From contig CM073323.1 of the NCBI GenBank assembly GCA_037043015.1, positions 25,138,758-25,202,757 of the forward strand: a DNA stretch of 64,000 bases. Direction: 5' to 3'. The notes under the pieces are model-generated. The model saw only the letters and a list, made by a program, of their open reading frames with translations. It searched no databases and was not told where the DNA came from. Below are positions 4,611 through 53,590 of the stretch, in pieces. This DNA comes from Bryum argenteum (Eukaryota; Streptophyta; Bryopsida; Bryales; Bryaceae). How positions within the stretch are numbered: the stretch's first letter is position 1; each line of letters starts with the position of its first letter. Both the position numbers and the translations under genes were made by a program.

Positions 4611-4789
4611 ATGTGTTAAGTATTTGTTAAATGGGAATATATATGAAGTATGTATTTAAGTCCTCTCAATGCATGTTGATTTTGATGTATTTATCTACAT
4701 GGCATTGTTTTTATTTGTGCTATATACACTATTTCAAGCGGCCAAAATAATAGGGATTGGCCAATTTAACGAATATGGCGTTAATGCCT

Positions 4790-30224: not shown

Positions 30225-30812
30225 AAAAAAACTTTTGACATAGTGTGGTAAAGGACAAAAATAAATAGGCGCATTCAACAAAGGTCTTAATAAATTTATA
30301 TAGAAGTACGGAAATAAATTGTTAATGTTAAATCATTGGAGGGAAAATGTGGGAAATTTTTTTTGAAGAAATGGTTTGGTAACTCACGATAAATACCAAC
30401 ATTCCATACAACTCTAAAAACTTGTATTTTCCTTTAAGATCCTTTAAGAGGGTAATTACACAATCAAAATCATATGAAAGGAAAGTCTCAAATTTCTTCA
30501 AAATTGACACAAGGATTCCAAAAATGTTTGTTGTGACTTGGGCACATAAAATATCAAAAAGATAAATTAATGATTATACGACTTATTTTTTATGAATCTC
30601 GGTAGGAGATGGGGTCTCGAGAGAAGAACGAGTATTTGCATAAAAGAGTCCTTGTTGATGACAACATCATTCTCAAAGTTGATCGTTATTGTTTAGAGCC
30701 AAGGTAGAGGCAAGGTATGCAGTCCTTATTATGCTTTTCATACTTTTTTAATAGAGTAAAATTGTCACTAAGTCTTTTTTTCATACTTTTGTTATAGAGT
30801 AAAAGTGCTACC
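29331..30812. other. Spacer and probable 5' leader of the first RRM gene
   Basis: No gene recognised to about 30,430. From about 30,430 to 30,720 the sequence is shared with 42,400-42,680, upstream of the second RRM gene. A conserved CAAGGTATG near 30,713 looks like the 5' splice site of an intron in the leader. The shared leader marks the left side of the duplicated block. Confidence 0.45.
30160..30220. repeat. (TA)n microsatellite followed by poly-A
   Basis: About 30 TA units end in a short A run. Simple sequence, likely length-variable. Confidence 0.95.
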
Positions 30813-33316
30813 ATGGCTGAGCAAGCCGCAAGCAAAGGAGAAGGCTTACTTGGTGCGGGGCCAAGCACTAGAGAAGGCTTACTTGGTGCGGGGCCAAGCA
30901 CTAGAGAAGGCTTACTTGGTGCGGGGCCAAGCAGAGGAGAAGGCTCACTCATCGAGGGGAAAGATGCTCTCTCTAAGAAGGTGTTTGTGAGAGCACTAGC
31001 ACGGAGGACAAACAATGATGTTCTTTATAGTCATTTTGAGCAATTTGGTGAAATAAAGGAAGCAGTGGTCATTAGAAACATCTACACCTCCAAGTCTCGA
31101 CGCTACGGCTTTGTAAGTAACTTTTACTCAACTTTGTGAAGAATTTTATGACCTCTGTGAATTGTTAAGAATATTATGCATGTTGAAAAGAAGATGTTAT
31201 ATTTTTAAGAGAGGAATAGGTGTTGTCTTGATGTTGGCCTTCTTAGAGCATTGTTTAGTTTTGTTTAGTTCACTCGTTCCCAAATTTTATTTTTCTTATT
31301 TTTCTTCGTATAGTGCACCCTAGAAAAGTTCTTAGGTCCACCATACCTCTAATATCAACTTATAAGACAAGCGATGTAGGATACACAACAAAAATTCAAA
31401 CACACAACCGGACTTGATAAAGATGGATTCAGGGCACACTAGAATTGCGTTTTGAAACAGGCATTCTAGTTATTACAGGCATTCTTTTCGAAACATAAGC
31501 TTGTTTGGGTTTCCTTAGCCTGTGGACGTCCAACCGATGCTCTTAAGTCTATGTGCTCTATACTTTAGACTTATGTTATTTTTGTTCTTTTGTTTTTTTT
31601 AAATTATATGGAGGAGCAAATTGTGTACTCTCTGTTCTAACAAAGGCAACTTGTTTTTTGCTTTGTAGGTGACTTTCAAGGATGCGGCTGCAGCACAACG
31701 CGCTTGTGAGAATACAAGACCATTTATAGATGGTACTCGGGTCCATTGCAAATTGGCACTTGAGGGTGTTGAGCGCCAAAATCATCATACTTGTAACGGT
31801 ACGATGAGTCGTTTTATTTATGATTATAAATATTACATTTCTATAGCTAAGCCATAAGCGGATGCTTTCAATCTTTGAAATCAAATGATGGTGGTTGGTT
31901 TTTCCATATGTCTCTACAGTTCGTGAGCACGGAATGCCTATTTTGGATAATCATGTATTGCCCCATCAAGCTGGAACGCCTACTTTGGGTGATCATGTAT
32001 TGCCCCATCAAACTAGTTTCCCTCAAGCCGGCTCTTCTCAAGGGAGCTCCTCTCAAGACAATTCGTCTAAAAAGAGTTTGCTTCAAACTCTTTTTTGTGA
32101 AGCTCGTTCACCTCATGGACACATGAACCATGGACCGCTTCGTATTGACCCCAACCCTGCAACATATTATCATGACGGGTTTGTTTCTCAACACCACACT
32201 ATTTTTTGAATGAACTCTTAAAGAGAAATTGTTGCAAATATGTTCATGCTTTTTTAACATATATGGGAAGTTTTAGATTTGGCGACATCCCTCCTAGTAA
32301 ATGTGTGCATTTTTTATTTTCTTGATCTTTCTTTTCAATACTTAAAGGACACATGAACACAACTTATTTTAAAGTAAGGTCATGTTATTGTACTAACCAT
32401 TACGATAGATAGATGATGAAAGAACAGGTTTACATTGCTCTTATCGATAGAAGATCATATTACTGTACTAGAAAGTTTGCATTTTAGAATACAATGTAAG
32501 ATAATGTAGTATACAACAACATAGTATCTAACAGTTTCATTGCTTTACAGAACTATGTCTCCTATAATATTCTCTAAATTAGGAATATAAATTATAAAGA
32601 AGATTGTTGATTTCACTAATCATACTTATTTATACTTTTGTTGAAATTGAATAATGGTATAGCAAACTTAGAATCATAACATCATCTTTATATTGAAAAA
32701 ATGATGTAACCAACACCCCAAACTAACAAATATGTTTGTATTGACAGGGTTCCACAACAGTATCTTCAACCCTACTTTCCTCAACCCTACATTCCGCCGC
32801 CCTGCATTCCTCCGCCCTACATTCCTCCGCCCCACTTTCCTCAGCTCTACTTTCCCTACCATTACCCTCAGGTACTTCAACGTTCTTTAAACTCTGTTTT
32901 GTATAGCATAGGGCATTGCTAATTTAGAAATAATATTCTACTAATACTTGTGATTTCATATTCAATACCATACATGAGTATATTGTTCATTTTATGGGTT
33001 CTTAGCATAACCATTTAGTTTGATTTCAAAGATAAGTATCTTTACGATTCAAATCCTCTAGGTCTAAAATAGAGTTGGGTATATAATAAATTTTAGAGAT
33101 TTTGAAGTCTAATTTACTTAGACTTGTGTTGGATTGCAGAGCAATGGTCTTGATGCACAAGAGGTTATTGGGGGGCCCTCTTCACCAAGAGGTATTACTG
33201 AGTACAGGCTATTTCTAAGTGGACCAGTACCAGTACCGGTTTATCCCCTGACACAGGCCATTATATTTCAAACGGCCAATGGTCCTGTTGCTGGAGAGAT
33301 AACGAAACTGCATTAA
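30813..33316 (+). CDS. Single-RRM RNA-binding protein with proline/tyrosine-rich C-terminus (copy 1)
   Basis: Five exons: 30,813-31,112; 31,669-31,798; 31,920-32,178; 32,748-32,871; 33,140-33,316, total 990 nt (329 residues). The start lies in a good context (ACCATGG) and is shared with copy 2. Residues 1-45 hold three GLLGAGPS repeats. One RRM follows at about 55-131: RNP2 as KVFVRAL and RNP1 as SRRYGFVTF, the latter split by the first intron. The later FKDAAAAQRACEN and PFIDGTRVHCKLA segments resemble plant ARP1-like and animal RBM24/38-like proteins, so single-stranded RNA binding in the nucleus or cytoplasm is likely. Exon 3 is Ser/Gln-rich with a duplicated DHVLPHQ-like segment; exon 4 is a run of PPPY/PPPHF units; exon 5 is a conserved tail. 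It belongs to a local family: an intact copy at 42,982, a dead one at 46,590. Confidence 0.88.
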
Positions 33317-33483
33317 AATTCTTTTTGTGTGAATATAGCAACCATTTTTTTTATGGTTAAGAGCATACTGATTAAAGTGTGAAGACAAAGTGTTTTCACA
33401 TTGTTCCAGACTAAATATACATGTATGTTGAATGACCATTTTATATACTTTACATACAGAATTTCAGAATTTGATTTCTGCTT

Positions 33484-34534
33484 TAACCCCTAAAAGCCCA
33501 AGGGGGTAGGAAGCTTGAACTTCACCCTAGAAAGAGCAAGACAATCAGCATTTTTTAAGGATTTTTGAAATTAGATCTGAACAAATCCAACCGTAGGATC
33601 TTGTAGGATAGTAGTATGGAAACCTTCACAAAAAAATTCAGAATTCTTGCCCGCACGGATTGGGAGATATATGCATTAGATGAAAAATATGCAAGTTTTG
33701 ATTTTTCGGGCAGCAGACTTTGAGCAATTATTACGACTTCATACAATGTTGAAAACGCAGCCTCTCTTGGAAATACATTGTCATGTGTAGTTCTATACCA
33801 TTTTCAAAAAAAAGTAGAATTTTAGGATGTATACTATTTTATAATGTGGCTTGCAATGGGCTGAGGTACACAAAATCTTGAAACATTGCAAAATTTCTCA
33901 AAAACTTTACACACCTTGGGGCACAGTGGAAAATAAAGGGTGCCGGATGGGCCCTTCACTACAGTTCCAAGAAAAGAAGAATAATTGTTATAAAACACAT
34001 TCAATAATAATAAAAAAAATAGCAAGTAGCATGTGAGGTGGCATGTGAGTTGTCGCATATGGCATCCACCCAAATCCTGTCTCACATAAGCAAGTCTCCC
34101 TCCCCTTTACCCATAAAAGCAATCCCCCTTCCCCCCTTATCCAATGCCCTTTTTAACATTTTGTAAGCATGTGAACAGTGGAGAGTGAGGGGAGGAATCA
34201 TGGGTGACCCTCAAACCCTTTCTGCCCCTCTGTCAAATTTCAAGATTTCCATTTTCAAGCTGTTGCCCAATCAATGGCCAAATTCACACTTGATTGGCTC
34301 TAGATGCTGCCCACAAGCTGCCCAAGTCCAAATCTTTGCCATGTTTGTGTTTGAAGCTTAGTAGAAAAAATTCTATGAATTCAAATGAGGTTTTGTAAAT
34401 TGGATGTAGTTCTCAACTCACCAAACTCCTAGTAAAAAAAAAAATACTTAGCAAAAAGTTACTTTTTTTACCCACTGGAGCCCCTCAAAAATCGGCATCG
34501 ACCAGAATATGGTCGATTGGGCTTTTAGGGGTTA
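33484..34534. mobile_element. TTAA-flanked MITE, about 1.05 kb (family 1)
   Basis: The ends are TTAACCCCTAAAAGCCCAA on the left and its inverse TTGGGCTTTTAGGGGTTAA on the right, a terminal repeat of about 15 bp inside TTAA. The paralogous block beyond copy 2 (45,690-45,725) lacks the element and keeps one TTAA with the same flank (ACATGTCTACCAATAT). No transposase frame is seen. The internal motif AATCCAACCGTAGGATCTTG near 33,585 recurs in the other members. Confidence 0.88.
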
Positions 34535-34899
34535 ATACATGTCTACCAATATCATCCCATATGCACCGTTGAAATGGCCAGTAGTCACATTGTATGGAGT
34601 TACGAGCGAATTATGGCCTTTTTAGGACTTCATGCTTTTGCTCAGTCTCATTACTTTATAGAAATATGCCTATTTAATATGGTGCAAACAAGGAATTTAA
34701 AATTCGAGAACAAAAGTTGTTATTTAAAAACGGCATTTTCACAATGAAGGAAATGAGCACCATTTAATATAAGGAAATAACAAATGATACATAAGACAAT
34801 AATCATCATTTATATAGGCATCACAACATACTTGTGTTGGAACTAAAGAATAATTTGGAAATGTTTTTATTCATACCTTTCTATATAGATAAAAAATAA

Positions 34900-35600
34900 T
34901 GTATGGAATGTTTTAAAGTATTGTGAATATTTGTGTATCGTATATAATTTCACAATATCCTTAACCCTACTTACTCTATGGTCACCCACCCTTGCGTACT
35001 TCAATGTGTTAAAGTGTTTCTATGGAAGTGAGATTTCATCATGTTTGATTTTAACTTAAACTTAAGTGGTTGATTACTGTATATAAGATTTGTATGATGT
35101 TCATTTGTTTGGTATTTAGCATAACTCCTTAGTTTAATTTTTAAGAATCGTTTAAATTAAGATACCCATAACTTGAATTCCAACATTAATGAATTTAATT
35201 TAATTTTCTCAATGTGTTTATGACTTTAAATGTTTTTCAGGATATTTTGATTCCATGAAGATTTAGAGGGATTAAAGTATAAACATGATTTTTACTTGAA
35301 TATGTGTTGGATTACAAAGTACAATTCAATGTCACAATGGATTTCATGCACAACATATTAGTGGAACACCCCCTTCCACCAAGTTAAGGCTACTGAAGTT
35401 CATTTTGTTTACCAAGATCCATTTTGTGATTTTTCAAGCTAATCAAGTCGAGCCTACTTTGAGTATAGGCGAATTATAAGGCAATTAATACGTAAAATTC
35501 CGATTAACCTTGTCTTACACACTCTATTATATTTCAAACGGTCAATGGTCCTATCAGGCACATTGGAGAACCAACAATTGTACGTTGATGTGAATATTAT
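34900..35600 (+). pseudogene. Relic of the 3' end of an RRM-gene copy
   Basis: Pieces match the last two exons of the RRM family. AATATCCTTAACCCTACTTACTCTATGG near 34,955 resembles exon 4. GTCACAATGGATTTCATGCACAACA near 35,330 and ATATTTCAAACGGTCAATGGTCC near 35,530 resemble exon 5. The relic also shares GAGTATAGGC with the third copy near 48,975. No intact frame. It is best read as what remains of a third repeat unit in this duplicated block. Confidence 0.6.
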
Positions 35601-36880
35601 AATTAAGTATATAGTTACATGCATAGGGATGATATCAGTGTTTAATGCATGGAAATAAATTATAGATCATGCTAGAGTTAGTATATATTTCAAGAGATAA
35701 CACTTAGATATATTTTATACAAATATTATGATATGATTTTAGCATTCAATTTTGTATACTATTGAGTGATTGATGTTAGCTAAAATTATGATAAGCTAAA
35801 ATCCAATCCAAGTTTAATATATGCTCAATCGTAGAAAGATCAAACATTACACTTGATTAGAATAACTCAAACACACATAGACAAGTTACTAAAACAATTT
35901 TGTAAGGCTCTCTTTTCAGGAGGTTAAAGAAGCACGGGGAAGCTTGATAGCGGAGTTCTTTGTTTGGAGAGACCAATTTGGTTGAAGTTTTGCAATTATG
36001 GTTGCATAGAAATAAGTTTGATAATAATCTAGAATCGAGTAACTATGCATATTCCTTCTTTACATTATAACAATTTTTTACATTTTAAATGAATATTTTC
36101 GATTGAATAATAATTGTTTTTTAAGTCAACAACCCAATATTGACAATCTCTATAGTCTTCTATTCTCCAAATATTCGGAGCACACTTACACACACAACAT
36201 TGTATACCTCTAACTTGAAATAACAATGTAATTTGAAGACACTTAATGCTCTCAAAACAATGGTTACAATTACTATGAATAATATTCACAAACATTCTTC
36301 AACACATTCAATGTTTATAATTCTAATTTTATATTTTATTATCACTAATTTATCATGAAGTATTAGTTATATAATTTACACTTGTTGTCAAAACAACAAT
36401 TGTTACAAACCTCTCAAGATACAAAACTCAACTCAAATGGATACACACTTCTTCTGAGTGTACTCCTGGATACACATTTCTCTCTATGTGTCCAAAGGAA
36501 AATGAACTTTCTTTTCCTATTTGTATTTCTCAAATTTTTTATTCCCATCTTTTCACTTCTTTTATGCCTTTTCATTTTCTTCCACTTCAAATAGTTTCTA
36601 TTTTAATCCTATTCAGCTCACATTCACACTTAAAGTAGAAAATGAAAAGTAAAACAAACTTTTACTCACATGAAAAGTCAAAAACATACTCAAAATAAAA
36701 AAATATGTGTTTGTGTCCCTCTTCTATGTGTTTGTGTCCCTCTTCTATGTGTTTGTGTCCTTGCGAATAACAATGAAAGGAAGAACACAAAAAGAACTTA
36801 GAACTCAAAACATTCACACTCAGAACTCTACTGATGATATCTATCTCTGAAAGAAGATCTCATCCTATCTATGTGCTCTA
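35601..36880. other. AT-rich spacer, partly shared with the second block
   Basis: About 35,700-35,910 aligns with 45,740-46,215 after removing the MITE in the latter. The rest has no recognised content apart from short repeats of GTGTTTGTGTCC near 36,705-36,760. Confidence 0.5.
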
Positions 36881-38110
36881 ATGCTCCACTGATCGCTTAA
36901 TCCGTGGCCGCAAGCTCGGATATGGTCCGTCGCTGAACCTGCAAGTAGCGCTGAAGGGGCGTCATCCTCAAGTTACCAAACTCATTTATCATGGTTGAGT
37001 GGGCACCAATGATAAAATAAGTCAAACATATAGTGTCCTTAAGTTTGTTCACCATAGGACACTGATACTGAAGCTTGAGTGAAAGCCAGAGCTCTGGATG
37101 ATTAAATGTATGGTCCTATCTAGCGTTACCTATGTCTACATCAATCCAAACAAAGTCCAAGCAATACTTTGCAAAAATCTTGCAAAATATGGCTAATCGG
37201 TAACAGACCGGGTCCTGACAATTTCGATGGTTAACCCAAAACTCTGTATATGCATCATAACACTCTTTAGGGGTTTGCTTCAATTTGGGAATCATGGGCC
37301 AATTGTAGTCAATGGAGATAAGAGTAGCATTTAGATTCCAGCGACTTTTTCTTTGGACAATCACAAAACTTCAAGTCATCTTTGATAGCTGGGGGTGGTG
37401 ATTGAGGCTAGTACTCAGAATCTTGTCTAAAAGCAATGTCAGCTGGTGTAATTTCCACTTGAACAGGACTGTCCATAGTCTCTTAGTATCCATGCAATGG
37501 CCTTGCACGTGGGTATGGGCTGCTCACTAGTGCGATCAAAAAACGCATCATACATGCCTTGACACTCACGCAAGATATTTGAATTATGGGGAAGAATGCC
37601 TTTCTGGACTATAGTTTATTGGAATTCCAGTCGCAGTTCAGCTATGGTCTGCTGCTCTGCCACGAGCTGTCATTGGGCCACCTTGACCTGCCTTCGGCTC
37701 ATCCGCAATTCATCCTTCACCTGCTGCATTTCTTTGGCGGCGTCTTGAACTCTAATCATATCCGCTCGTTGGTTGGCGGTCACTCTTTAGTTTGTTGTCC
37801 GTTAGCTAGCTCTGGAGCCTCGCAACCTCTCGGTGCGCTTCCTCAAGCTCTCGGAGCACTCCGTCTATAATTTGCTTCACTTCTAGGTTATGAAGCCTCT
37901 CCGCCAAGCTCGCCTCAAGCTAGACTATAGTATGTTGTTGAGCCCGACTTTGCTCTTAGGTTGTTGCCAATTCTTATTTCATTCGCCCCTAGTTCTCCTG
38001 CAGTTGGCCTTTAGCTTCAACGGCGGTCTTCTTTTCTTGTCTCACGTGTGCCACCTCCTTCCTCAGCTGGTTGATCATACTTCGGTTATTAGCTTTCTCT
38101 TTTGAAAGTT
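36880..38110 (-). pseudogene. Decayed coiled-coil ORF, probably retroelement gag-like
   Basis: Reading the minus strand from 38,110, the frame gives a heptad-like, charged stretch (AELSKEKANN, INQLRKEVAHVRQEKK, VLRELEEAHREVARL). It is broken every few dozen codons by TAG, TAA and one TGA. A further segment at 37,116-37,364 is open (KECYDAYTEFWVNHRN). Length and position next to a gypsy pol relic suggest an old gag-like protein of a mobile element, but I do not recognise a defined domain. Most of the stops differ from CAG, CAA or CGA by one C-to-T change. Confidence 0.45.
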
Positions 38111-38269
38111 CAGCCTCCCTCAAGTAACAAGATGGGTGCTCTTATTGCAAATATTCAAGCATCAATTTTGTTATTCAAGTACAACCAGGGAAGCACCGTC
38201 TAAATGCTCACCATTTATCATGAATGTCAAGTGAAATAAATATCGAAGCTATAAAAAATGAATTACTAG

Positions 38270-38490
38270 ATGCGCAATTATTCGAAGTGGATGGTGATTC
38301 CTTTTGAATATGCTGAAGTCATTCATTATTTGCAAAATGGAAGTATTCCAATAGAATATACTTCCAAACAACGAGACCGATTAATTTACAAGGCGGCTCC
38401 TTATACAATGATTGGAGAAGTTTTGTATAAGAAAGAGAAGGATGGCATTTTAAGGCGGTGTATAAATCTAAGTGAAATTCCATCAATCTT
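38270..38490 (+). mobile_element. Integrase N-terminal fragment of a Ty3/gypsy pol, inverted
   Basis: The plus strand reads YLQNGSIPIEYTSKQRDRL, then YKAAPYTMIGEVLYKKEKDG and ILRRCI, then SEIPSI. This is the stretch leading into the zinc-binding part of a gypsy integrase. It stops within about ten codons and joins sequence coding for reverse transcriptase on the other strand. The two frames face each other, so this is a rearrangement junction and not one element. Confidence 0.65.
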
Positions 38491-41400
38491 CTCAGGAGGT
38501 GTGTTAAATGTAGTGCAATGCCCGCATACTTGTAAATGTATCGTCTATAATAGCCAACATGGCCCAAAAAACTTTTAACTTCTGTAATGGTGTTTGGTGA
38601 TGGTAAATTAGGGATAATTGCTACCTTATCCGGGTCGGTTGCCATACCTTCTTTTGACACAATATGGCCAAGCAATTTTCCAAAAGGAACAATAAATTGT
38701 GACTTTGTCGCATATATGGATATACCATATTTGTTGGAAACATTTGAATAGCTGATCCGCGTGATCTTTCTTGAACCAAATACACAAAAGTCATCAAGGA
38801 AAATTTTCATGAATTTTCTTATATACTTTTGAAAGGCCGTAGTCATAGCTCTTTGAAATGAGGCTAATGCATAGCATAGCCCAAATGGCATTTTGTTATA
38901 TGTAAACGTGTCCTAATTTGCTGTAAAGGTTGTAAGTGCCCGATACTCCTTGGTAATTTGCACTTGATTATATCCATCAAGGGAAGAATACGTTTCATGC
39001 CCCCCCCACACTCTCCAACAAGGTATTTGTAAACGGTAATGGAAAATGGTCTTTCTTAGTCACCGCGTTAAATTTACGAAAGTCTTGGCGAATTCGGACT
39101 TTGCTGTTTTTCTTTAGTACTACTACTATCGGTGAAACTCATTCACCATAGGGAACTCGAAAAGTAAATTCACATTTTAATAATTTGTCTATCTCTTCTT
39201 TGACCATGAGTGAATATTTTGGATTCATTCGATATTGTCTTTGTCGGATAGGCTTCGTATTTTCTTAAAAAAAACTCGATATTTGTAGATTTCCAGTGGA
39301 AATCCTCTAAGATCTTTGTATGTCCATGCAAAGCTCTTTTTATTTTTCTTTGAAGAATTTAAGCCAAGTTGTAAATTCTTGTGAAGTTAATTCTTCATAT
39401 ACTTTTATTACTTGGGGTTCTTCTTTAGTTCCTAAATGCATATCTTATCAATTCAATATCAAATTTCCGAGTTGAGTAGGAATGTGATAAAATTCCATTG
39501 AAAACTCTTCAACTTCTTTAGAATCGGAAGAGGAATTAAATTCACTTACGGATTCACATTGTGTTTGTATACTAAACACATGTGAATTTTCTCAAGATAT
39601 TAATATAGTTTTATCAGAATCAGCATAGTGTAATATTTACTGATTCCTGTGTTTATATATTTTATTTTTCTCTGAGAGTTTTGAGATTGGTGTGTCAATC
39701 TCATAACCCAAAGAGTCTTCTATTTTAGAAATAAATTCACTTCCATTTGTTTGAGTTTCTCCTCTATAAATAGTAGGATACATAGGCAAAGTAATTTTTT
39801 GTTTGCCTTTGCCAATTGTAGTGGTACCTTTTCCCTAATCATCTTTTGATTTTGCCAAATATAGTCAAGGTCTTCCCGACAATATTGGGTTAAATAAAAT
39901 TGTATCGGTTATTTTAAATATAATGTAATCAATTTTTAACGACATGCCACTGATAATAGTTAATATTTGATTTAAGACTCCCAAGGGTTTTACTTGATTG
40001 TGGTCAACCATTCGCAACATGATAAGAGTTGGTACCATATTTGTTAATCCAATTTCATCCATAGTTTCCTTGCTCATGAGGTTAGCACTAGATCCTCCGT
40101 CAATTTGTATATTTTCAATAAATGATTCATCGATCATTACTTCCATACTCGGTGCTCCCAGATCTAAGGAAATATCATGCACTTCTACTTCTGTGATATG
40201 TTTGTGAATTAAGAAATGACTTAATTCACTCCGACACTTCGGAGATATGGTCAATAATTGGCAAAGTGTAATGTCTAGGTGTATATTGTCCAAGTTCTTT
40301 AAGAGGCTACAAGGTTCCAAACCTATACCTAGTCTTATCGTCCGGTTTTTTTTTTTGCTTATTTGCTCCAAACTATTTTGTATTTGTTTTAGCAAAAGTC
40401 ACTTTTGGAGGTAATAAATTTATAATGGGCAAAGTTTGAGGGAGTTCCAGTGGTAATTGTATTTGATTTGGTACGTCCTTTGGTAGAGGAAGAGGTGTTG
40501 AATTTGGTGCCACGACACTTGGTGGTATAGATCTGTCCTTGTTCCTCATCCGAATTTCGGATTTTGTTTTCAAAAGATTAGTTTCTGACAACTTCTTTAT
40601 ACTTCTTCTACCTACTCGATTAACAACTTTTTTGTATTATATGGTTGACCTCTATTGTGTCTTTTGGACCTCTCAAAGTTTTACTCTGCTTCCTTTCACC
40701 CAATCTCTTTCTAAAGGGGCAAATCTGGGTGCTGATGCCATGCATTCTTCTACGCGGTGGCTCGGTTGTTGACATCTTCACCATTGAGGAACATAACTTT
40801 CTTCTTTCCTTGTATTTGGGCACTCATTGGCATAATGGCCAAATTCACCACAACGATAACATATTAAGTGTTTGCCTTTTTGCGGTGGTCCATATCTATA
40901 TTTTTGTGGATTGGAAGGTAGTCTGTTCCAAACCAGTGGTTGATTATAAGTGTATTTCCACCTTGTTCTATTTTCACTTCGTTTATAGGACAGTCCCACG
41001 TTGGGTCGTGTGAATGGTTTTTTATTTGGATTATTAATCCATAGTCTATTGTCATTCACTTGATTTACATTCTTCCCATGAAGATGCCAGCATTGGTCTA
41101 CGGGATGTCTTCCTCAGTCTACAATGACCACACTTTGGTACTTGATTCAATGGTAAAGAGAATTCTTCCTTCCTACTCCATAGCATATACAATTTGCACA
41201 CCAAACATTAGATTTTACATCTGTTAGAATTGTTTTATTATTTGTATTAAAAGTCATATTAATTCTCAATTTCGTGAATTTTTTAGCTAAGTCCATTACC
41301 ATTTCTTCGGTTCTATTTATAGGTGGTGTGTTGGCTACCAATGTGGTTGTATTCACAAGAAGTGTTTCAACTGTTGGTCTCGTGCCATGTTGAGCCACAG

Positions 41401-41700
41401 CGGGTGTTATTCTTGATTGTAGTTTAATAGTGGGAATTGAAGGTGCATCTACATATGGTAAATAGTCTTCATCTACTCTTGCCTCTTCCCATAACTTAGC
41501 CGTGTTATAAGCCGTAGCCAAATCCACTGGTCTTCTCTCTTTCAAGAACATTTTTAATTTTGGTAAATACAATCTGCCAACAAATATACTTGTTAAAAAA
41601 TGTGTCCGGCATATTGTGGTTGGTCCACCTTGTCAAAAGGTCATCCATTCTTTCATAGAAGGAGTCCATCATGCTTTCTCCAAGTCCCATTTTTATATTT
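38490..41700 (-). mobile_element. Decayed Ty3/gypsy retrotransposon: gag, zinc knuckle, protease, reverse transcriptase
   Basis: In the order expected from 41,690 downward: gag (GLGESMMDSFYERMDDLL, then LATAYNTAKLWEEARVDEDY), a CCHC knuckle (CYRCGEFGHYANEC, about 40,925), an aspartic protease core (IDGGSSANLM, about 40,100, with Gly at the usual Ser/Thr position as in many plant gypsy elements), and reverse transcriptase (VRIRQDFRKFNAVTKKD about 39,090; MPFGL 38,891; FLDDF in place of the usual YxDD; LGHIVSKEG and KSFLGHVGYYRRYI). Several stops and frameshifts lie between and within the parts. RNase H, integrase and LTRs were not found in this orientation. Inactive relic, truncated at 38,490 where it meets an inverted integrase piece. 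Confidence 0.85.
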
Positions 41701-41763
41701 TTTTAGTAGTGATTTTCGGAGAGTAAATGTCCATAATTTGTCCATATGTCCATAATTAGTTAA

Positions 41764-42386
41764 GGGTGATGGTATGCTTGGCGTACCCAAATAGGATGTC
41801 TCATGAACAATTGCACTCTATACTAGTGTGTCAAACATATTCATTTTTAAAGTGTAATACATTAAGACTTCATTAAATGTAGTTTTAGTTGTCTATACTT
41901 ATAATGTATCAAGAAAAAAAATTAGAAATTAAATAATATATTTTGAAGTAATTTTATTTGACTTTCTACTTGAAAAAGTAAGTTGTGTCTCACTAACCCA
42001 AAATCCATAGAATCAAGCAAATGGAATATCAACCATTTTTATTTTAATATAATTTTCGAATATGACCTACATCTTCTTGTATAGAATACAGAATAATTTA
42101 TTTAATTTAAAAAATAATAATTCATTGTGCACTATAATGCCTGCAAATCCCAAAATTCAGCATTTTTTCTCACATCTATGAATGGATCCAAAAAAAATAA
42201 AAAATCTAAGAGAAACTCTATAGGCATATATAATTTGATTTCATTGAGGTGCATGATATTTTATTTTCCATTTTAGGGTCTTTATACTAGATTGAAATGG
42301 ACAAATTAGACATATTTTGGAGGCTTTCAATAAAAGTAACCTAATTAGTGTGTCCAAAAAGTGATACCCCAAGCTTACCATTGCCC
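41764..42386 (-). mobile_element. 622-bp inverted-repeat element, copy 2, TTAA target duplication
   Basis: Inverse of 27,591-28,212 with only a few mismatches noticed. The left flank is AGTTAA then GGGTGATGG; the right end is TTGCCC then TTAA. That is a TTAA duplication around ends that begin GGG and end CCC. It lies between the gypsy relic and the leader of the second RRM gene. Confidence 0.85.
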
Positions 42387-42981
42387 TTAAATATCCGTTA
42401 AAACATTTATTTGAAAGAAAACTTACACAATCAAAATCATTGGAAAGGAAAGTCTCAAAAGTCTCCAAAATTGACGCAAGGATTCTAAAAATGTTCCCTG
42501 TGACATGGGCACATGAAATATCAAAAGATAAATGAATGATTAAATGACTTTTTTATAAGTCTCGGCAGGAGATGAAGTCTTAAGAGAAGAACAAGTTGTT
42601 GCATAAAAGGGTCCTTGTTGTTGACAACATCATTCTCAAAGTCGATATCAGAGCCAAGGTAGAGGCAAGGTATGGGGTCCTTTTATGCTTTTCATGCTTT
42701 TTATACTTTTGTTATAGAGTAAAATTGTCACTAAGTTTGTTGTGCCTATTGAGAGCATTAAATCAAATATTGTAAAAGATGGTATCACAACTTCTTTTCA
42801 ATCCAAGATGGTGGTATAGTTTTTTGAACCAAAATTCTTGTTGATTTTAGCTTACATAATGAATTGTTGAAGTACAATCATGGATAATGTGTGTAGAAAC
42901 GAGATCGAAGTAGTAGATACATTGTTATTAGGGCAAGGCCTGAGTTCAAAAACATGCACGTTCGGAAAAGCTAGTGCTACC
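42387..42981. other. Leader region of the second RRM gene
   Basis: Aligns with about 30,430-30,812 upstream of copy 1 (for example AGGAAAGTCTCAAA and GCCAAGGTAGAGGCAAGGTATG). The block gains extra sequence near 42,740-42,970 that copy 1 lacks. The frame is open upstream of the ATG here, but the shared start argues for 42,982. Confidence 0.5.
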
Positions 42982-45523
42982 ATGGCTGAGCAAGCCCCAA
43001 GCAGACGAGAAGGCTTACTTGGTGCGGGGCCAAGCAGAAAAGGAGGCTCACTTGGTGCGGGGCCAGATGCTCCTTTCACAAAGGTGTTTGTGAGGGCACT
43101 AGCACGGAGGACAAACAATGATGTTCTTTATCGTCATTTTGAGCAATTCGGTGAAATAAAAGAAGTCGTGGTGATTAGAAACATCTACACCTCCAAGTCC
43201 CGACGCTACGGCTTTGTGAGTAACTTTTACTTAACTATGTGAAATTCTATGACTTGTGTGAATCGTAAGGAATGTTATGCAGGTTGAAAATATCAGTAGT
43301 TACATATTTAAGAGAAAAATAGGTGTTGTCTTGACGTTGGCATCCTTGAAGCATTGACTCCGACTAGGTGAATCACTTGCTCTCAATTCAACTTTTCTTA
43401 CTTTTCACCGTTGCTTTTTGGTATAGTGCACATTAAAAAAGTTCTTAGGTCAACCATACTTTCAATATATATGACAAGCAACGTAAGGATACAATACAAC
43501 AAGTCAAATACACAAACTGGATTTGAAAAAGATGGATTTAGAGCACATTAAGGTTGCATTTTGAAATGGGAAGTGATTGCATGCACTCTTAAGTTGGGGG
43601 TTACTATTGGCCCTCTTTTAGAAACCTCCGCTCTGTTAGGGTTTCCGTAGCTTGTGGCCGTCCAGGAAATTTCCGCTCTGTTAGGGTTTCTATAGCCTGT
43701 GGCCTTCTAGTGCTTTGTTACGGTAGGTGGTCTTACGTCTTGTGCTCCGTAGTCTAGATTTCTTTATCTTTTTATTTTTCTTTATATATATATATATATA
43801 GAGAGCTATGATCATATTAATCTTCTAGTATAGCCAATTGTAAAGATTTGTATTGTTTTCTGTAACCAAGGCAACTTGTCTTTTGCTTTGTAGGTGACTT
43901 TCAAGGATGCTGCTGCAGCAAAACGTGCTTGTGAGAATACAAGACCAGTTATAGATGGTACTCGGGTCCACTGCAAATTGGCACTTGAGGGTGTTGAGCG
44001 CCACAATCATCATACTCGTAACGGTATGATGAGTCCTTATATTTGTGAGTATAAATATTACATTTTTATAGCAAAGCCATAAGCGGTTGCTTTCAATCTT
44101 TAAAATCAAATGATGATGACTAGTTTCTCTATATATCTCTACAGTTCGCGAGCACGGAACGCCTACTTTGGGTGATCATGTATTGCCCCATCAAGTTAGT
44201 TTGCTTCAAGTCGGTTCTTCTCAAGGGAGCTCCTCCCAAGACGGTTCATCTAAACAGAGTTTGCCTAAAACTCTTTTTTCTGAAGTTGGTTCACCTGATG
44301 GTCACCTGAATCCTCGACCGCTTCGTATTGACCCCTACCCGGCAACGTATTATCATGACGGGTTTGTTTCTCAACACCACACTATTCTTTGAATGAATTG
44401 TTAAAGAGAAATTGTTGCAAATATGTTCATGCCTTTTTAACATATCTGGGAAGGCTTAGCATTGGCTAATTCCCTCCTAGTAAATGTGTGCAATTTTGTT
44501 TTTCTTGATCTTTCTTTTTGATGATAAAAGAACACATGAACACCACTTCATTTAAAGTAAGGTCATGTTATTGTATTAACCATTATGATAGAAAAAACAC
44601 GTTAACATTGCTCTTTTTGATAGAAGGTCATGTTACTGTGGTAGAAAGTTTGCATTTAAGAATACAAGGTAAGATCATGTAGTATATATATAGCAGCACA
44701 ATATCTAACAATTTCATTACTTTACAGAACTATGTCTACTGTAATATTGTGTGAATTAGGAATATAAACCTTTTAAGAAGATTGTTTGATTTTACTTATC
44801 ATACCAATCTATACTTGTGTTGAAATCGAATAATGGTATAGATAATTTACATTCAATATTTCATCTTTATATAAACAAAATGATGTAACTAATACTCCAA
44901 ACTAACATAGATGTTTGTATTCATGACAGGATTCCTCAACAACATCCTCAGCCCTACTTTCTTCAGCCCTACATTCCTCCGCCCCACTTTCCTCCGCCCC
45001 ACATTCCTCCGCCCTCCATTCCGTCGCCCTACATTCCTCAGCCCTATTTTCCCTACCAGCACCCTCAGGTACTTCAACGTTCTTTAAACTCTTTTCTGTA
45101 TAGCATAGGGCATTACTAATTTGGAAATAAGATGTTACTAATACTTCTGATTTCATAATCAATACTATACATGAGTATATTGCTTCTTTTAGTGGTTCTT
45201 AGCACAACCATTTAGTTAGATTTTAAAAATGATTATGTTTACGATTCAACATCTCTAAATCTAAAAAAGAGTTGGGTATAATAAATTTTAGACATTTTGA
45301 AGTGTAATTAACTTAGACGTGTGTTGGATTGCAGAGCCATGGTCCTGATGCACAAGAGGTCAATGGGGGACCCTCTTCACCAAGTTTTGGTACAAGAGTT
45401 ATTCTTGAGTGCAGGCTGATTCTAAGTGGACCAGTACCAGTACCAATTTATCCCCTCACAAGGGTTATTATGTTTCAAACGCCCAATGGTCTTGTAGCTG
45501 GAGAAATAATGGAACTGCATTGA
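42982..45523 (+). CDS. Single-RRM RNA-binding protein with proline/tyrosine-rich C-terminus (copy 2)
   Basis: Five exons: 42,982-43,215; 43,894-44,023; 44,145-44,361; 44,930-45,068; 45,335-45,523. Total 909 nt (302 residues), with the same intron positions as copy 1. The N-terminus carries two LGAGPS units instead of three. The RRM keeps KVFVRALARRTNNDVLY and RRYGFVTF, and VIDGTRVHCKLA replaces FIDGTRVHCKLA. Exon 3 is shorter because copy 1 duplicated the DHVLPHQ segment. Exon 4 has more PPPH/PPPY units (FPPPHIPPPS). Exon 5 gains SFGTRVILE. The frame is intact throughout, so it is likely functional; protein differences sit mainly in low-complexity parts. Role as for copy 1. Confidence 0.87.
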
Positions 45524-45861
45524 AATTATTTTGTGTGAATATTGCAACCATTATTTTTATGGTTAAGGGCATACTGATAATTAAGGTGTCTAATGTGTGA
45601 TGACAAATTGTCTTCACATAGGTCAAGACTAAATATACATGTATTTTGGAATGACTATTTTATATACTTTACATACAGAATTTTGAATATGATTTGAGCA
45701 TTTATTAACACATGTCTACCAATATTCAAGTTTTTGTATGTTGTCAATTGATTAAGGTTGGTTAAAGTCTATGATAAGTGTACAATTTTAGCATTCAAGT
45801 TGTATAATATTAAGTGATTGATGCTAGCTAAATTTTTGATTAGGTGAAAAACAATCCAAGT

Positions 45862-46136
45862 TTAACCCCTAAAGATCCTTGATTTAAAATTGCTTAAATT
45901 ATAGAAAATGACCTTTGCTTACTTGAGGCCAAAAAAGCTCAATCTAAGTATCAATTAGTATCCAACCGTAGGATCCTAAAGTGAACTTGCCTTATTACTT
46001 ACATGTGTAATTTGAACCATTGATTCTTTTTCATTTGTGAGATTGTAATGGTCAAAGTTGGTTGATTTCACTCCCTCCAAGAACCCAGAATAGTCATTTC
46101 CTCTTTCCTAGATCTTTAGGGGTTAAAATATGCTTA
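45862..46136. mobile_element. TTAA-flanked MITE, about 275 bp (family 1)
   Basis: The left end is TTAACCCCTAAAGATC and the right end is GATCTTTAGGGGTTAA. The corresponding place in the first block (near 35,815) is uninterrupted, reading CCAAGTTTAATATATGC with a single TTAA. This is an independent insertion with a preserved empty site. The internal motif ATCCAACCGTAGGATC is near 45,960. Confidence 0.88.
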
Positions 46137-47911
46137 GTCGTAGAAAATTGAACATTACAACTTGACTGGAATGACTCAAACACACTTAGACAAGTTACTA
46201 AAACACTTTACAGATTTGAAATTGTCTAACTTAATATTAATATCGACAAACCATAATAAACAGTTCTTTATTAGCTAGTGGCTTGATTTTGTTGAGATTT
46301 TTCCTCTTATCTTAAATCCTTCTATAGTAAGTATCCATGACAAAACAATCCATTCTTTATATAATGTAGTAAATTTCACATTCTTAAGTAAAATATAGTT
46401 GGAAATTTAAGAAAGATAAATCCAACAAATGGATTAAAAATTATAAAAAATGTAAGGATAGCAAATGATGTCACTATATGAAATATTTCAATCTTATGAG
46501 TCAAACTCAAAACATTATAGAATGTTTAAAAATCAAAATCATGAAGAAGTGAAAGTATTCACCTAGTTTATGGGTCTCGGAAGGTGATGGGTCTTGGGAA
46601 GTGAAGTGTCTCTTGTCGAATAAAATAGGAACTGTGGTCGACAACACTCTTTAGAAGTTGATTGCCCATCTATTTAGGCTAGGGTAAACCGAGTGTTTCC
46701 TCTCATATAATGTAGCATAATTTTATTTTATCTTTTCGATAATTTAGTATACAACATAATTTGTTAAAGTATAAACACTGAAGATTTGAAGAATAGCCTC
46801 AAAGAAATGTTCTAAGGATAATCACATCGAGAAGAGCAAGTGTTACTATGACTAAACAAGCTTGCAAACACAAAAAGGGGTTCATGTGGTGGAAGCCGGA
46901 GGATGCTCCTTCTACAAAGGTGTTTGTGAGAGGACTATCACGGGGAACAAATTATCTCACCTTTCAAGTTTGAGCGATTTGGTGACATAAAGTAAGTTGA
47001 GGTGTGGTTATGAGGGACATTTACACCTTTGAGTTAAGGCGGTGTGGTTTTGTGAGTACTTTGATACTCAACTATGTCAAGATTTCATTTATTGTGTGAA
47101 ATATTAAAAATGTCATGGTCTACTCCTAATATATTGGTAAGAGAGAAATTGAAACCAACAACCTTGACCTTTTTAGGCATCCATATTTTGCTTTTTATTT
47201 TTTATGCAAAAGGAATGTACATAGGAAGCTCTACCAATGAACTCTCAATGAAACCTATTCTAAAAATGTTTCTTGAAAGCAACTCTTATCTTGTTTTCTA
47301 GGTAACTTTCAAAGATGCACTTGCTGTTGAGCGAGGTGAGCGAGCTTATGAGAATGCAAGACCAGTTATCAATAGTATAGAAGCCCATTGCAAAATGGCT
47401 CTTTAGGGTGTTTAATTGCCAAAATCATCATACCCGCAACGATATAACTAACTATTGTACTTAAAATATAAGTATCATATTTTACGATAATTTAAGCAAA
47501 ATAATTACAACTCTATGCTTTAATCTGTATAGTTGAAAGTAACTATTAGATTTCTTGGACTTTGTCCTCATGGGCAAGGAAGACCTACTTCAGGTGATTA
47601 TGTATCGCCGCCCCAAGCTTGTATGCCTCAAGCTCGTTTACTTCGTAGTCGGCAAACCTTGCAACATGAATATGGCAGGTTCGTTTCTCAAGGTTCCAAT
47701 ATTGCTCCAATATTATTATCTTGACCTTGTAACGGCGAGGGACAATAATTTAATCATGATCTTAATGTGGTTATTTTTTACTGTTTCAAATTTATCTCCT
47801 ACATGCCAAAAGGAGCAAGGACTACCAGAATTAAAGGATTAAAATTGGTCTCACGGCATTAAAGGATTAAAATCAAATTGTTGCAAATGTGTTAAAACAA
47901 TCTTGCTTACT

Positions 47912-49000: not shown

Positions 49001-50355
49001 AGTACCCTCAAACACTTACGGTAATATATAAAACTCGGTAATATATAAAACTTGTCTATGGTTCACTCAATAGAGATCTTCGAATTTAAACATTATAATC
49101 TCACTCATGATAACAAATTTGAATCTAAGATTTGAAGTACACATACATATACAATTAAGGTAGTAGAACTTACTATAGCATCCTCACAAATACATGGCAA
49201 TTGAATTTGTGCACCTTGCTTTGAAAGAGGGCAGTTTCCAAGGTGTATAAGAGTTTTGAGGCCTTTTGACATTAGGGGTTAAAAGGTCTAATAATTAATC
49301 AATGGAACTACTACAACGAGCATGCTATCTTAGAATATATTTTTGTGTAGAAGTACACTAAATTTGATAATTAGTGTTAGATACACTAATTTACATAAAC
49401 ATGTTATAAATTTTTACTGTTGTTCAATAATTTAACCCGCTATATTGGCCAAGATGGGGGTTCTTATATAGTATCAGAATCAATGCTCTTGGTAATTTTT
49501 TTAAAACAAAAGTAAAAACTTATAGCATTTTCAAATCTTATAATAATCTAACACTAACTATCAAATTTAGTGTAGTTGGTTCTTGTCAAAGCTTCATTTT
49601 CCCTTTTTGTTTTTAAATTCTCTACAAGAGTTTGAATGAAAACCACTATTTGTGGGTTCAATTTAAGTAACGTCAGAGCATATTCTAGCACACTACAACC
49701 AGTATTTGACAAAAAAATCATCCCACGAATGGGCGGTTGGAATGCTTAATTAAAAATCCCATATGGATAATGAAATTAAAGGTTTCCTGAATTAACACCT
49801 CCTTTCCATCATGAGTTCACGACTGTAGGACCTGCCACCAGGGGTATTAATGGTTGCGAAGATCATAAATAAGAAAATCAGTTTAATGCTATGTATTAAT
49901 GAAGAAGAAGAATTCCTACCTATTTAGAGGTGGGTGTGAATAGAGTGTTCGTTCGACGTATCCTTGGATGTACAGTATGCGGCGAGGTCATCACACCAAT
50001 GGCAACGAGATTACTAACCCCTCTCGGGGTGAACACTATGCTCGTTCCTACATGGTATTTCCCCACAAGGTTTTGAGGTCCAAGAATCCCTGAGCACCAT
50101 AGTTGATTGAGCACCACACGGGCATGGGGAATGGAATTCACAATTTGATAATGAAGAAGACTTTGAATCCAAAAACATCAGGGTTGCTTGAGACTTTTGG
50201 ACTAAGAAAGAGGTGCAGAAAGTTGGCTAAGCCGAGAAAGAAACCTTTGTACCTTGCATTAGAAGTAGACATTTTTGAGGGTTCTTGGCAGTTTTGAGGC
50301 CATTCGGCTCTAGAGGTGAAAGTCTTAAGAGTTTCAAAGTGAGTCATGCTTTGTA
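49001..50355. other. AT-rich spacer with element ends, no gene recognised
   Basis: Two similar pieces, 49,230-49,275 and 50,262-50,310 (both with AGTTTTGAGGCC), look like right ends of family 1 elements. The first ends in TTAGGGGTTAA. Their left ends were not found. No coding sequence. Confidence 0.4.
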
Positions 50356-51230
50356 TAACCCCTAAACGTCCCTAGTATCGAAAAACAACATTCTGGATGA
50401 AGGGCATAAAGTTTGAAGGGTCGTACCTTCCTCATTTCAACTCCTTTTTTGACAAAATTACTTCGGTTGAGTCACAAATCAAGTTTAATTTCTGTGATAA
50501 AAATGATAGACCCATACAACAAAGTATGAATGAATGACATACATTTCGGTGGAGGCAGTTCTTGTTTTTGAGTTTTCAAACATTTAGTATGTTTTACCAT
50601 TGCAAGCCATTTATGTGAAAACGAAATAGTTTCATGATTTTTTTTTTTTTACATAAGTGAGATATTTAGATGAATCCCAACAACTTTTTAGTTGGAAGTT
50701 TTTATCTTTATAACTTTGGTATTGGATTTTCTATGAAGTTTCTACAATGAATAAAGTGAAAAAATGGATGATTCTTGAGGAGCCATATCTCCTTCACTCT
50801 CACCGTTAGATTTTTTATTTTTTTTAGATGGATTCCAATCATACGTCTAAATTTAGTGGTAGAAAGCTTGACCGGGCAATCAAAGAAAATTTGAAGATAA
50901 GACATGAATTTGAGTGCAAGGGGTATAGTTTTAAACTATTTTTTCTTTATAATTTGATTAGCAGTTTTCACCATTGCACGGCTACTATTTCAGCCAAAAT
51001 ATTTTTTGATGAATTTTTTTGGTACAATAGAGTCTTTGAGGATAAAATAAATAACTTTCTAGTTGATCAGTTTTTGATTTCAAATCTCTCGTTGGTAGTA
51101 TTCTCACTTCAAAACGAAAATGATGATATTTTGCAGTTGGTTTTGCAAACTAGTATGTCACAATCTTGTAATCTATGAGGTCTCTTGAGTGAAGGTTTGG
51201 TCCACATGATTTACAATAAGTCTACTTAAA
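50356..51230. mobile_element. Truncated family 1 element, about 0.9 kb
   Basis: Starts TAACCCCTAAACGTCCC and aligns in inverse orientation with 54,690-55,549 (blocks AAAAATGGATGATT near 50,760 and ATCTATGAGG near 51,172). It loses similarity after about 51,230 without a matching right end. No frame with support. Confidence 0.65.
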
Positions 51231-51789
51231 GTTTGTATACTAAATTACAATTGCTTATTTATTTTCCACCTATGACAATTTTTTTTGAAAATGAGCTTTT
51301 AGCTAAACATACCCCAAGGACGTAAAGGAGATAAGTTCCACAATTTAACATCAAACCGAAAAATGTGAAGTTGAATCCAAACAACATTAATGATAAGAGG
51401 TGATACAATGAACCACAAAAAACATACCTCACTCTATCCAAAAGCAAAATTAAGAGAAACTACTTCAAAAGTCCTTCCTTTTCACTAAACATGGCCAAAA
51501 TTATATTCGGCACAATCATCATCCTCACAAGCCGCAAGAGACTTTTGCGAGATCTCGAGACTTTCTGTGCACGTAAACCGAGGACCCCTTCGAAGTCGTT
51601 CGCTACCCCTCCAAAGATACACTAGACTGTTCGTCAGAGCAGAATGTTCGGCACTAGACTGAAATCCGTTAAACCACATCTACTTCGACATGCATGCACA
51701 TTTCCATTGGAATCGAAGCTCCGAATGTACTTGGCAGTACTGACAGGAATTCTCCATCTTTCGGCAGCTTCTGAGCATGAGCACGCTCA
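51231..51789. other. Spacer and probable 3' region of the small secreted-protein gene
   Basis: The composition changes from AT-rich to balanced at about 51,480. A minus-strand frame of 64 codons at 51,485-51,679 has no motif and may be 3' UTR. Confidence 0.35.
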
Positions 51790-52065
51790 TCACGCTGACA
51801 TTGGTCCCGGAGAAGTATTTGGGTGCAACCAGACCACACTCGGGCCAAAGCTGGGAGCGTAAGACGGAGGAGATTCTGCCTCAGGGGAGTAGGCAGGAGC
51901 ATACTCAGGACCATGACCGTAGTCTACCGTAGGCGCTGGCCCTCGCATGTACGGCGCCGGAGCATGTCGATGCATATCCGGAGCTCGAGCAGGAATTTGT
52001 GCATCCACTTGCACAGACATCGACACTGCAACCAGCACAACAAGAGCGATCACGCACTTCGCCAT
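51790..52065 (-). CDS. Small secreted proline/alanine-rich protein, arabinogalactan-like
   Basis: Single exon, 91 residues. The start MAKCVIALVVLVAVSMSVQ is a clear signal peptide with likely cleavage after VDA. The mature part is rich in Pro, Ala, Ser and Tyr, with APAP, GPAP and SPEAESPP motifs of the kind hydroxylated and glycosylated in plant cell-wall proteins. There is no obvious C-terminal GPI-anchor hydrophobic tail, so it is probably soluble in the wall. The upstream edge is a 23-bp tandem repeat only five bases before the ATG. The family is uncertain; a small AGP or Pro-rich peptide is the best guess. Confidence 0.6.
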   Translation of the reverse strand: MAKCVIALVVLVAVSMSVQVDAQIPARAPDMHRHAPAPYMRGPAPTVDYGHGPEYAPAYSPEAESPPSYAPSFGPSVVWLHPNTSPGPMSA

Positions 52066-52069
52066 CGTC

Positions 52070-52207
52070 GATCAACTTCCCTCGACCAGATCGATCAACT
52101 TTCCTGAATCGAATCGATCAACTTTCCTGAATCGAATCGATCAACTTTCCTGAATCGAGTCGATCAACTTTCCTGAATCGAATCGATCAATATTCCTGGA
52201 TCAGATC
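52070..52207. repeat. 23-bp tandem repeat, six units, at the start of the secreted-protein gene
   Basis: GATCAACTTTCCTGAATCG units begin at 52,070, 52,093, 52,116, 52,139, 52,162 and 52,185, an exact period of 23. Outer units are diverged, inner ones nearly identical. Each unit junction contains the palindrome ATCGAT or a near version. The repeat lies in the promoter or 5' UTR of the minus-strand gene ending at 52,065. Confidence 0.95.
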
Positions 52208-52979
52208 GATAAACCTCCGATCCCCGTCAATAACACCCACTAAGTACAAACTCGATCAAGCTCTGTATCAAAGCTAAGACTGGCGATGGTACTATCGAGA
52301 ACCGATAGATAAGATTCAGGATGGTGATGGTTACATGATTTTCAAGCAGGACGCGGTTCGAATCTTCAATTAGGGTACACAATGTCAATCTGTTGACTCA
52401 GCGTTTTAAAAATGCACTTATGAAATGCTTGTATGCAGCACCTGTAGAGTACCCAATGTCAATGAGAATATGCTTCAACAGTAAACGTCGGCGCCAAAGT
52501 TACGGAGATCGTATGCATGTGGTGTAGAGTTCATTGGTACTAGTATTCACACGGTTGCAACAGTTTCAATCTCTGCCTGCCCCTGCACTGGTTGCAACAG
52601 TTCATTCTCTTCCCAGGCTAACTTAGCTGGCTGGCGTTGCAACTGTAATCAGCGAGGTCCTCGCATGGAAAAAGCCTGCCACCGATTCCGTGCACACCTT
52701 ATTTAGGATGGCGTCCGTCCCACTGCGATTACCTCGCAACTGCCTCTCTGTACCTCGCTTGCACTCCATCACTGACGGTAGCTGCCACCATTTCGGCCTC
52801 GAACCACGAGCCTATTACTCTCACATTCCATTATTGTCAACCGCTTTCATCACCCATCCATGTTTTCGATTATGCTTTTTGAATTGATTATCACGAAATT
52901 TCCTTGAGGCGACACATGTTTCTTAATGAAAAGAAAACTCCACAAAGTAACAGTGTTAGCCCCTAAAGGAGAAGCTCTG
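52208..52979. other. Spacer, probable upstream region of the secreted-protein gene
   Basis: Balanced base composition. The frame at 52,690-52,887 has no motif. A TAGCCCCTAAAGG near 52,958 looks like another family 1 element end. Confidence 0.35.
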
Positions 52980-53590
52980 TAGTGCACTTCCAGACGGTCA
53001 TATCTAAATCTGTGAACAATGCTTCTAAATTTGATTTTGAGAAATCCAACTGTAGGATCTTGTTATCTAATTATGTGAATAATTTTTTAAAATTTGATCT
53101 TGAGACATCCCACTGTAGGATCTTGTTACCTAAGGGGCACTTCACACTATGGCCGAAGGTGGAGAGGCCGTCACATTTTTTTCATAAAAATTCAAAAACT
53201 GACAAGATCTTGGCCGTTAGATCAAAAGGATGCCTTGGACAAGGGATAAAGTGATATGGGTTTGGACTTTGGGCTTGGCCTTTGGAGGCTTCATATTACG
53301 GCCGTCCAAGTTGAGAGGCCATGGGAGTTCATGGCCAAAGCTTTGGACTTTGGGCTTGGCCTTTGGAGGCTTCATACTATGCTAGGCCAAAGGCTCCAAT
53401 TACAATAGTTTATTGGTTATTTTCAGTAAATTCCTTTGGACTCTCAACAAAGTTTGGACTCTCAATTCCACGGCCTCTCGACTTGGACGGCCATAGTGTG
53501 AAGCGCCCCTAAATCAGTGAGCATTTTTTTGAAATTTGATTTTGAGAAATCCAACTATAGGATCTTGTTATCACTGTCTAATTAGTTTTC
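52980..53590. repeat. Three diverged copies of a roughly 60-bp unit with GTAGGATCTTGTTA, interrupted by a MITE
   Basis: Units centred near 53,050, 53,110 and 53,555 share the pattern AAATTTGATTTTGAGAAATCC followed by ACTGTAGGATCTTGTTA. The second and third are separated by the insertion at 53,134-53,509. The unit is also the internal part of the family 1 elements. Confidence 0.7.
53134..53509. mobile_element. 376-bp MITE with TAA target duplication (PIF/Harbinger-like)
   Basis: Left end GGGGCACTTCACACTATGG, right end the inverse of GGGGCGCTTCACACTATGG, with inverted similarity over about 40 bp (GGCCG...GAGAGGCCGT). TAA lies on both sides. A TAA duplication with GGG-rich ends is the pattern of Tourist-like, PIF/Harbinger-dependent elements. 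An internal segment with TTGGGCTTGGCCTTTGGAGG occurs twice in direct order. No transposase. Confidence 0.85.

Follow-up and report, generated by a model that had tools for sequence, protein, structure and literature searches.

Two short insertions in a 64,000-nucleotide stretch of the genome of the moss Bryum argenteum (assembly GCA_037043015.1, contig CM073323.1; the whole stretch is referred to here as the window) are, with a probability of about 96%, non-autonomous members of a large and diverse piggyBac population in this plant genome. They are called element 1 (1,045 bp) and element 2 (257 bp), and they lie in two paralogous blocks, each of which holds one element and lacks the other. What has been firmly identified is a transposon of a known type, in a host where it is unusual and where its presence is unexpectedly large and in part young. 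A first-pass annotation, made from the letters of the window, had proposed piggyBac-type transposition at TTAA sites, and longer relatives that carry a transposase between related ends now support this proposal.

Reciprocal filled and empty sites

The features on which the argument rests are as follows, in the coordinates of the window.

30456..35900, + strand: first paralogous block, with element 1 and without element 2 (limits approximate)
33483..33486: TTAA target-site copy on the left of element 1
33487..34531, + strand: element 1, assigned as a non-autonomous piggyBac of 1,045 bp, with the terminal inverted repeat (TIR) CCCCTAAAAGCCCA at each end
34532..34535: TTAA target-site copy on the right of element 1
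35814..35817: single TTAA where the first paralogous block lacks element 2 (empty site)
42423..46209, + strand: second paralogous block, with element 2 and without element 1 (limits approximate)
45705..45708: single TTAA where the second paralogous block lacks element 1 (empty site)
45862..45865: TTAA target-site copy on the left of element 2
45866..46122, + strand: element 2, assigned as a 257-bp piggyBac miniature inverted-repeat transposable element (MITE), with ends CCCCTAAAGATC(C/T) on both sides
46123..46126: TTAA target-site copy on the right of element 2

The first-pass annotation had claimed that an element at 33,484 is absent from the second block and an element at 45,862 from the first. 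Both absences were recovered: alignment of the joined flanks of each element with the other block shows that the paralog matches on either side of the junction, where a single TTAA stands. The TTAA on both sides of each filled site and the borders of the two elements were likewise found as claimed. The coordinates given at that stage were accurate to within a base, apart from a right edge at 46,136 that proved loose.

Ends of this kind are abundant well beyond the two elements. The terminus TTAACCCCTAAA occurs exactly 14,192 times (7,028 + 7,164) in the whole genome of 258.8 Mb, against 172 times (90 + 82) for the reversed pattern, and with up to two mismatches it occurs 24 times in the window, against 8.0 ± 2.8 in shuffled sequence, with none of 100 shuffles reaching 24. 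Since the counts lie far above the shuffles in the window and far above the reversed pattern in the genome, the ends are not a product of chance. The TIRs are about 12–15 bp long and start with CCCCTAA, giving elements of the form CCCCTAA...TTAGGGG. That of element 1 is preceded by TTAA in 108 occurrences and by a stretch whose first base is not T in 15, and some of its occurrences form pairs with a spacing of about 6.6 kb.

Longer elements that carry a piggyBac transposase

A profile search of the genome with PF13843 (DDE_Tnp_1_7) scored 116 matches among 775 candidates. All 116 lie above the curated cut-off, 93 are without an in-frame stop, and together they are spread over 11 contigs (C1 to C11). 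None of 14 control genomes gave a match, a weak control, these genomes being probably prokaryotes. With phmmer, one frame of 897 residues matched the solved piggyBac transposase of Trichoplusia ni (T. ni; 6x67, E = 2e-29) and piggyBat (9c0f, E = 7.7e-24). In the frame, Asp stands opposite D268, D346 and D447 of T. ni (numbering counted from the alignment), which we take to be the catalytic residues. By alignment, all three Asp of this DDD triad are present in every one of the 21 frames of at least 650 residues, and 20 of them also keep a fourth Asp, D450 in T. ni; alignment was used in place of a simple residue pattern, which had missed or misplaced the triad in several frames. Pfam recognized the transposase domain in all five frames scanned, with 416–447 residues without a match ahead of it. 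A C-terminal Cys-rich zinc domain, defined by a loose Cys/His regular expression, was found in 22 of 32 frames; as four of the 32 frames repeat loci already counted, this amounts to 19 of 28 distinct loci, the other nine being without it.

Domains of this kind lie inside elements of 5.8–6.6 kb that are flanked by TTAA and have CCCCTAA ends related to those of the small elements. Two loci, L039 and L040, share about 98% of their sequence over roughly 6.4 kb, and the similarity stops exactly at TTAA, with the TIR CCCCTAAAGATCCA. L039 contains an open frame of 867 residues with the piggyBac domain. Upstream of this frame, in the same 6.4-kb element, lies a second open frame of 378 residues (L039 5,750–6,886, minus strand), which could represent either a 5' exon or another gene. 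A third locus, L041, carries a 5.76-kb TTAA-bounded element (1999..7756) with an open transposase frame of 910 residues, inserted inside another repeat. The empty counterpart of this insertion falls in the window and provides a third filled/empty pair:

54560..55010: empty counterpart of the 5.76-kb insertion of L041, a single site reading TTAG

Within 1.5 kb of the transposase domains, TTAA-bounded inverted ends were found at none of 30 loci, the elements being longer than that, and a wider region around L042 gave no clear pair of ends.

Of the two small elements, element 1 has the closer link to a transposase-bearing element. One end of a 6.6-kb element at C5:17,816,210-17,822,822 corresponds to positions 1–672 of element 1 at 99% and the other to positions 672–1,045 at 98% (672 + 374 bp), and a 2.5-kb portion of its middle codes for the beginning of a piggyBac transposase domain, at 49–54% identity to others in the genome (best 14 matches). 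Because both of its halves match the two ends of the long element, element 1 is, judged by sequence, that element without its middle, an internal-deletion derivative. For element 2, the first 14 bases agree with the ends of L039 at 13 positions, and L043, a better-kept MITE copy of 260 bp, shares 31 of 36 bases with an end of L039. The search for an autonomous relative that the first-pass annotation had suggested led to a piggyBac transposase with a DDD triad, inside TTAA-flanked elements with related ends.

Target-site duplication, rival readings and timing

A TTAA site alone cannot tell a 4-bp duplication from one of 3 bp (TTA/TAA) or 2 bp (TA), and we therefore examined copies at variant sites. 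Among termini reading CCCCTAAAGATCC, 1,952 have T as the first flanking base and 134 have another base. The flank is TTAA in 92 of the first 100 of the 1,952, and in 88 of the first 100 of 411 rows of paired ends that start with T. Copies with both ends intact and a first base other than T made up 49 rows, or 46 distinct places, of which 20 were picked by hand and fetched. An identical 4-mer stands on both sides in 16 of these 20: ATAA or TTAT, CTAA, CTAG and ATAT, with the TA core constant. One common flank is found in 10 of the 16, so that the matched copies represent seven independent sites. These ten (L043, L044, L045, L048, L050, L051, L052, L055, L056 and L059) are MITE copies of 256–260 bp with identical flanks, apparently a single ATAA insertion that was multiplied inside another repeat.

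In the 1,045-bp family, all 12 fetched copies, including that of the window, have matched 4-mers (11 TTAA and one CTAA), and a further pair of ends, at C10:5,592,289-5,598,899, has CTAG on each side. Because copies outside TTAA carry matched 4-mers, duplications of 2 bp and 3 bp are excluded and the duplication is evidently one of 4 bp in the sampled copies. Tabulation of the flanking 4 bp, the check put forward in the first-pass annotation, has thus shown TTAA to be dominant and the fourth base to be duplicated at variant sites. The spectrum of variants is that reported for piggyBac. In the literature, CTAA/TTAG and ATAA/TTAT are given as variant sites with TA constant (PMC6651600, citing Li et al.), the sites of PMC6651600 itself do not always keep TA, and those of the Pokey element are TTAA in 88.13%, TTAT in 5.93%, ATAA in 5.09% and CTAA in 0.85% (PMC3849761). 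By analogy with the family, transposase supplied in trans by the long elements would bind the shared ends and cut the element out cleanly, and insertion would follow into TTAA or, rarely, ATAA/TTAT, CTAA/TTAG, CTAG or ATAT, with duplication of the 4 bp.

Several observations weigh against the piggyBac assignment or limit its reach. The TIR length agrees with the 12–19 bp quoted for the superfamily, but the ends begin with CCCC, so that the fourth base is C rather than the T of the quoted CCYT motif (PMC10175614). Four of the 20 fetched copies are unmatched: one flank is TTAA and the other is TTAG (two copies), TTAT or GTAT, a pattern to be expected if a TTAA pair has since mutated. The listed ends at C3:3,610,244 (CTAG and CTGG, read inward) and at C5:9,761,779 (GTAA and CTAA, read inward) are unmatched as well. 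A TA core is missing from 8 of the first 100 of the 134 CCCCTAAAGATCC rows with a flank other than T and from 6 of the 15 such rows of CCCCTAAAAGCCCA; we take these rows to be decayed or chance matches. In the older 257-bp family, four of eight fetched copies have matched TTAA and the other four have flanks that are decayed on one or both sides. On the side of the partners, the frame of L040 is shorter (558 residues), the 257-bp copy of the window agrees with an L039 end at 24 of 36 bases at best, and the transposase of the 6.6-kb partner on C5 was read in part only. The young copies are an indirect sign of possible recent mobility.

Against the piggyBac assignment stand three other accounts of the elements. 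The first-pass annotation had kept as an alternative a PIF/Harbinger reading, in which Tourist-like MITEs would duplicate 3 bp (TTA/TAA) within a TTAA context. Harbinger MITEs are common in plants, and the TTAA flanks themselves include TTA and TAA. For Tourist, a TAA/TTA duplication is stated (PMC10004981). The matched CTAG, ATAT, CTAA, ATAA and TTAT pairs nevertheless require a duplication of 4 bp, and CTAG and ATAT hold neither TTA nor TAA. The symmetric CCCC...GGGG ends also suit a 4-bp and not a 3-bp duplication, and PF13843 is the transposase domain encoded by the long elements whose ends are related. For the sampled copies, the matched 4-bp variant sites and the transposase refute a Harbinger reading of the CCCCTAAA...TTTAGGGG elements, to which we attach next to no credence.

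The same two lines of evidence led us to reject, for the sampled copies, a Tc1/mariner-like (Stowaway-type) origin, in which 2 bp (TA) would be duplicated and the ends would read ACCCCTAAA...TTTAGGGGT. The matched variant sites all keep TA at their core, and at a TTAA site alone the TA reading is symmetric, both of which would suit such an origin; it is made extremely improbable by the outer bases, which are also duplicated in the ATAA, TTAT, CTAA and CTAG copies, and by a partner transposase of the piggyBac type. Because piggyBac is best known from animals, we also considered that the transposase genes might stem from contamination or be one domesticated gene with no relation to the small elements, and found no support for this. 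The transposase matches occupy 11 contigs; L039, L040, L041 and the C5 element are TTAA-bounded repeats whose ends are common to the small elements; one of the long elements sits in a repeat that has its empty counterpart in the window; and the same assembly has 90 chlorophyll a/b-binding matches, which mark a green plant. The chance that the transposase genes are foreign or unrelated to the small elements is therefore very slight.

A piggyBac origin of both elements leaves the timing of their insertion to be considered. The paralogous blocks differ at 225 of 1,784 bases (12.6%, or about 6–7% per lineage; Kimura two-parameter (K2P) distance 0.139) in the longest aligned stretch and by 12.1%, 13.6% and 19.5% in three shorter stretches of 306, 81 and 87 bases. 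Element 1 differs from the consensus of 11 other copies at 4 of 1,044 bases (0.38%) and element 2 from that of its seven fetched nearest relatives at 20 of 257 (7.8%), in samples of top-scoring copies (12 of 40 listed and 8 of 40 listed, respectively) that bias both consensus sequences toward the window copy. With 0.38% from its family consensus against 12.6% between the paralogs, element 1 evidently entered one paralog long after the duplication. Element 2 appears to be of about the same age as the duplication, and either was inserted soon after it or was cleanly excised from the other copy; because piggyBac excision restores one TTAA, its empty site does not date the insertion relative to the duplication.

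A history in which element 2 predates the duplication, its empty site being the result of clean excision, is possible rather than probable. It draws on the restoration of TTAA by piggyBac without a footprint (PMC8086355) and on the overlap in ages, 7.8% from the consensus against about 6–7% per paralog lineage, and it meets no direct counter-evidence; for element 1, the corresponding history is ruled out by age. The argument that reciprocal filled and empty sites prove insertion after duplication consequently stands for the 1,045-bp element, by its age, and fails for the 257-bp element, for which the ages overlap and scarless excision is possible.

The window contains one further feature that is probably related to these elements:

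50355..55549: probably a third piggyBac, an older relic some 5.2 kb long, with termini CCCCTAAACGTCCC and flanks ATAA/TTAA

Subterminal inverted repeats of this relic pair 50,699–50,796 with 55,116–55,213 at 80%, and no transposase match was found inside it. A tandem repeat with a 23-bp unit, TCGATCAACTTTCCTGAATCGAA, occupies window positions 52,045–52,228. Elsewhere in the window, the arms of a perfect inverted repeat, each 213 bp or longer, lie 13.5 kb apart (28,000–28,212 and 41,764–41,976); the scan started at 28,000, and the arm may extend further. In the genome, weak PF00504 (chlorophyll a/b-binding) matches are clustered at C5:8.16-8.41 Mb, C5:14.73-14.76 Mb and C2:25.06-25.09 Mb and resemble tandem arrays. 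We presume that they may represent ELIP-type proteins, as in desiccation-tolerant plants. For one LHC protein of this genome, the closest solved structures after 9vfj_2 are 7xqp_a and 8htu_U, both entries from Physcomitrium patens, which fits a moss host.

Land-plant setting and comparison with known systems

A 2025 paper describes piggyBac elements as widespread among animals, fungi and protists and as occasional in plants, where it names red algae (PMC12732532). Plants are listed as hosts without detail (PMC10140906, PMC8086355), a review counts piggyBac among the MITE superfamilies of angiosperms (PMC10004981), and a fern genome table has 1,230 repeats labelled PiggyBac, at 0.00% of the genome (PMC6890710). 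The initial view that this type of transposition is rare or undocumented in land plants was thus mostly right, the angiosperm MITE and fern mentions being exceptions to it. In a moss genome paper, the matches to 'piggybac' are the word 'piggybacking' (PMC10619864), and the main text of a 2026 moss genome review has no occurrence of 'piggybac' (PMC13120521). No transposase-encoding piggyBac of a land plant was found in the literature by title and start of abstract, a search that leaves subscription journals mostly outside its coverage and is weak evidence.

We put even odds on the broader proposition that this moss is the first clear case of a land plant with a large, multi-lineage population of piggyBac elements that encode a transposase and have been active recently, perhaps to this day, and with thousands of non-autonomous copies. 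If true, it would constitute a natural plant system for scarless TTAA transposition, and might offer a transposase adapted to plants, with insertions expected to be scarless. The presence of 116 scored domains and 14,192 exact termini in a plant genome changes the picture of piggyBac as mainly animal, fungal and protist, and raises the question of horizontal entry versus ancient retention.

Among characterized systems, piggyBac of T. ni (6x67/6x68) is alike in its catalytic domain and three catalytic Asp, which align, in its TTAA duplication and in its C-rich inverted ends. It is 2,472 bp long (PMC10140906), whereas the elements described here measure 5.8–6.5 kb, with another of 6.6 kb read in part; they also differ in ends that begin with CCCCTAA, in a green plant as host and in the 416–447 residues that precede the Pfam domain in five frames. 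The match to piggyBat (9c0f) extends over query residues 425–895 and includes the C-terminal Cys-rich part, but piggyBat of Myotis lucifugus (host as given in PMC8086355) is diverged in sequence and has another host and other ends. Pokey, or mPok, of Daphnia similarly uses TTAT, ATAA and CTAA beside TTAA, and has as a feature of its own a single-site insertion in 28S genes (PMC3849761). Tourist (PIF/Harbinger) and Stowaway (Tc1/mariner) MITEs resemble the small elements in being short, high-copy, inverted-repeat elements in a plant, but make duplications of 3 bp and 2 bp, respectively, which are excluded for the copies sampled here; MITEs at TTAA sites in plants should accordingly not be assigned to Tourist by default.

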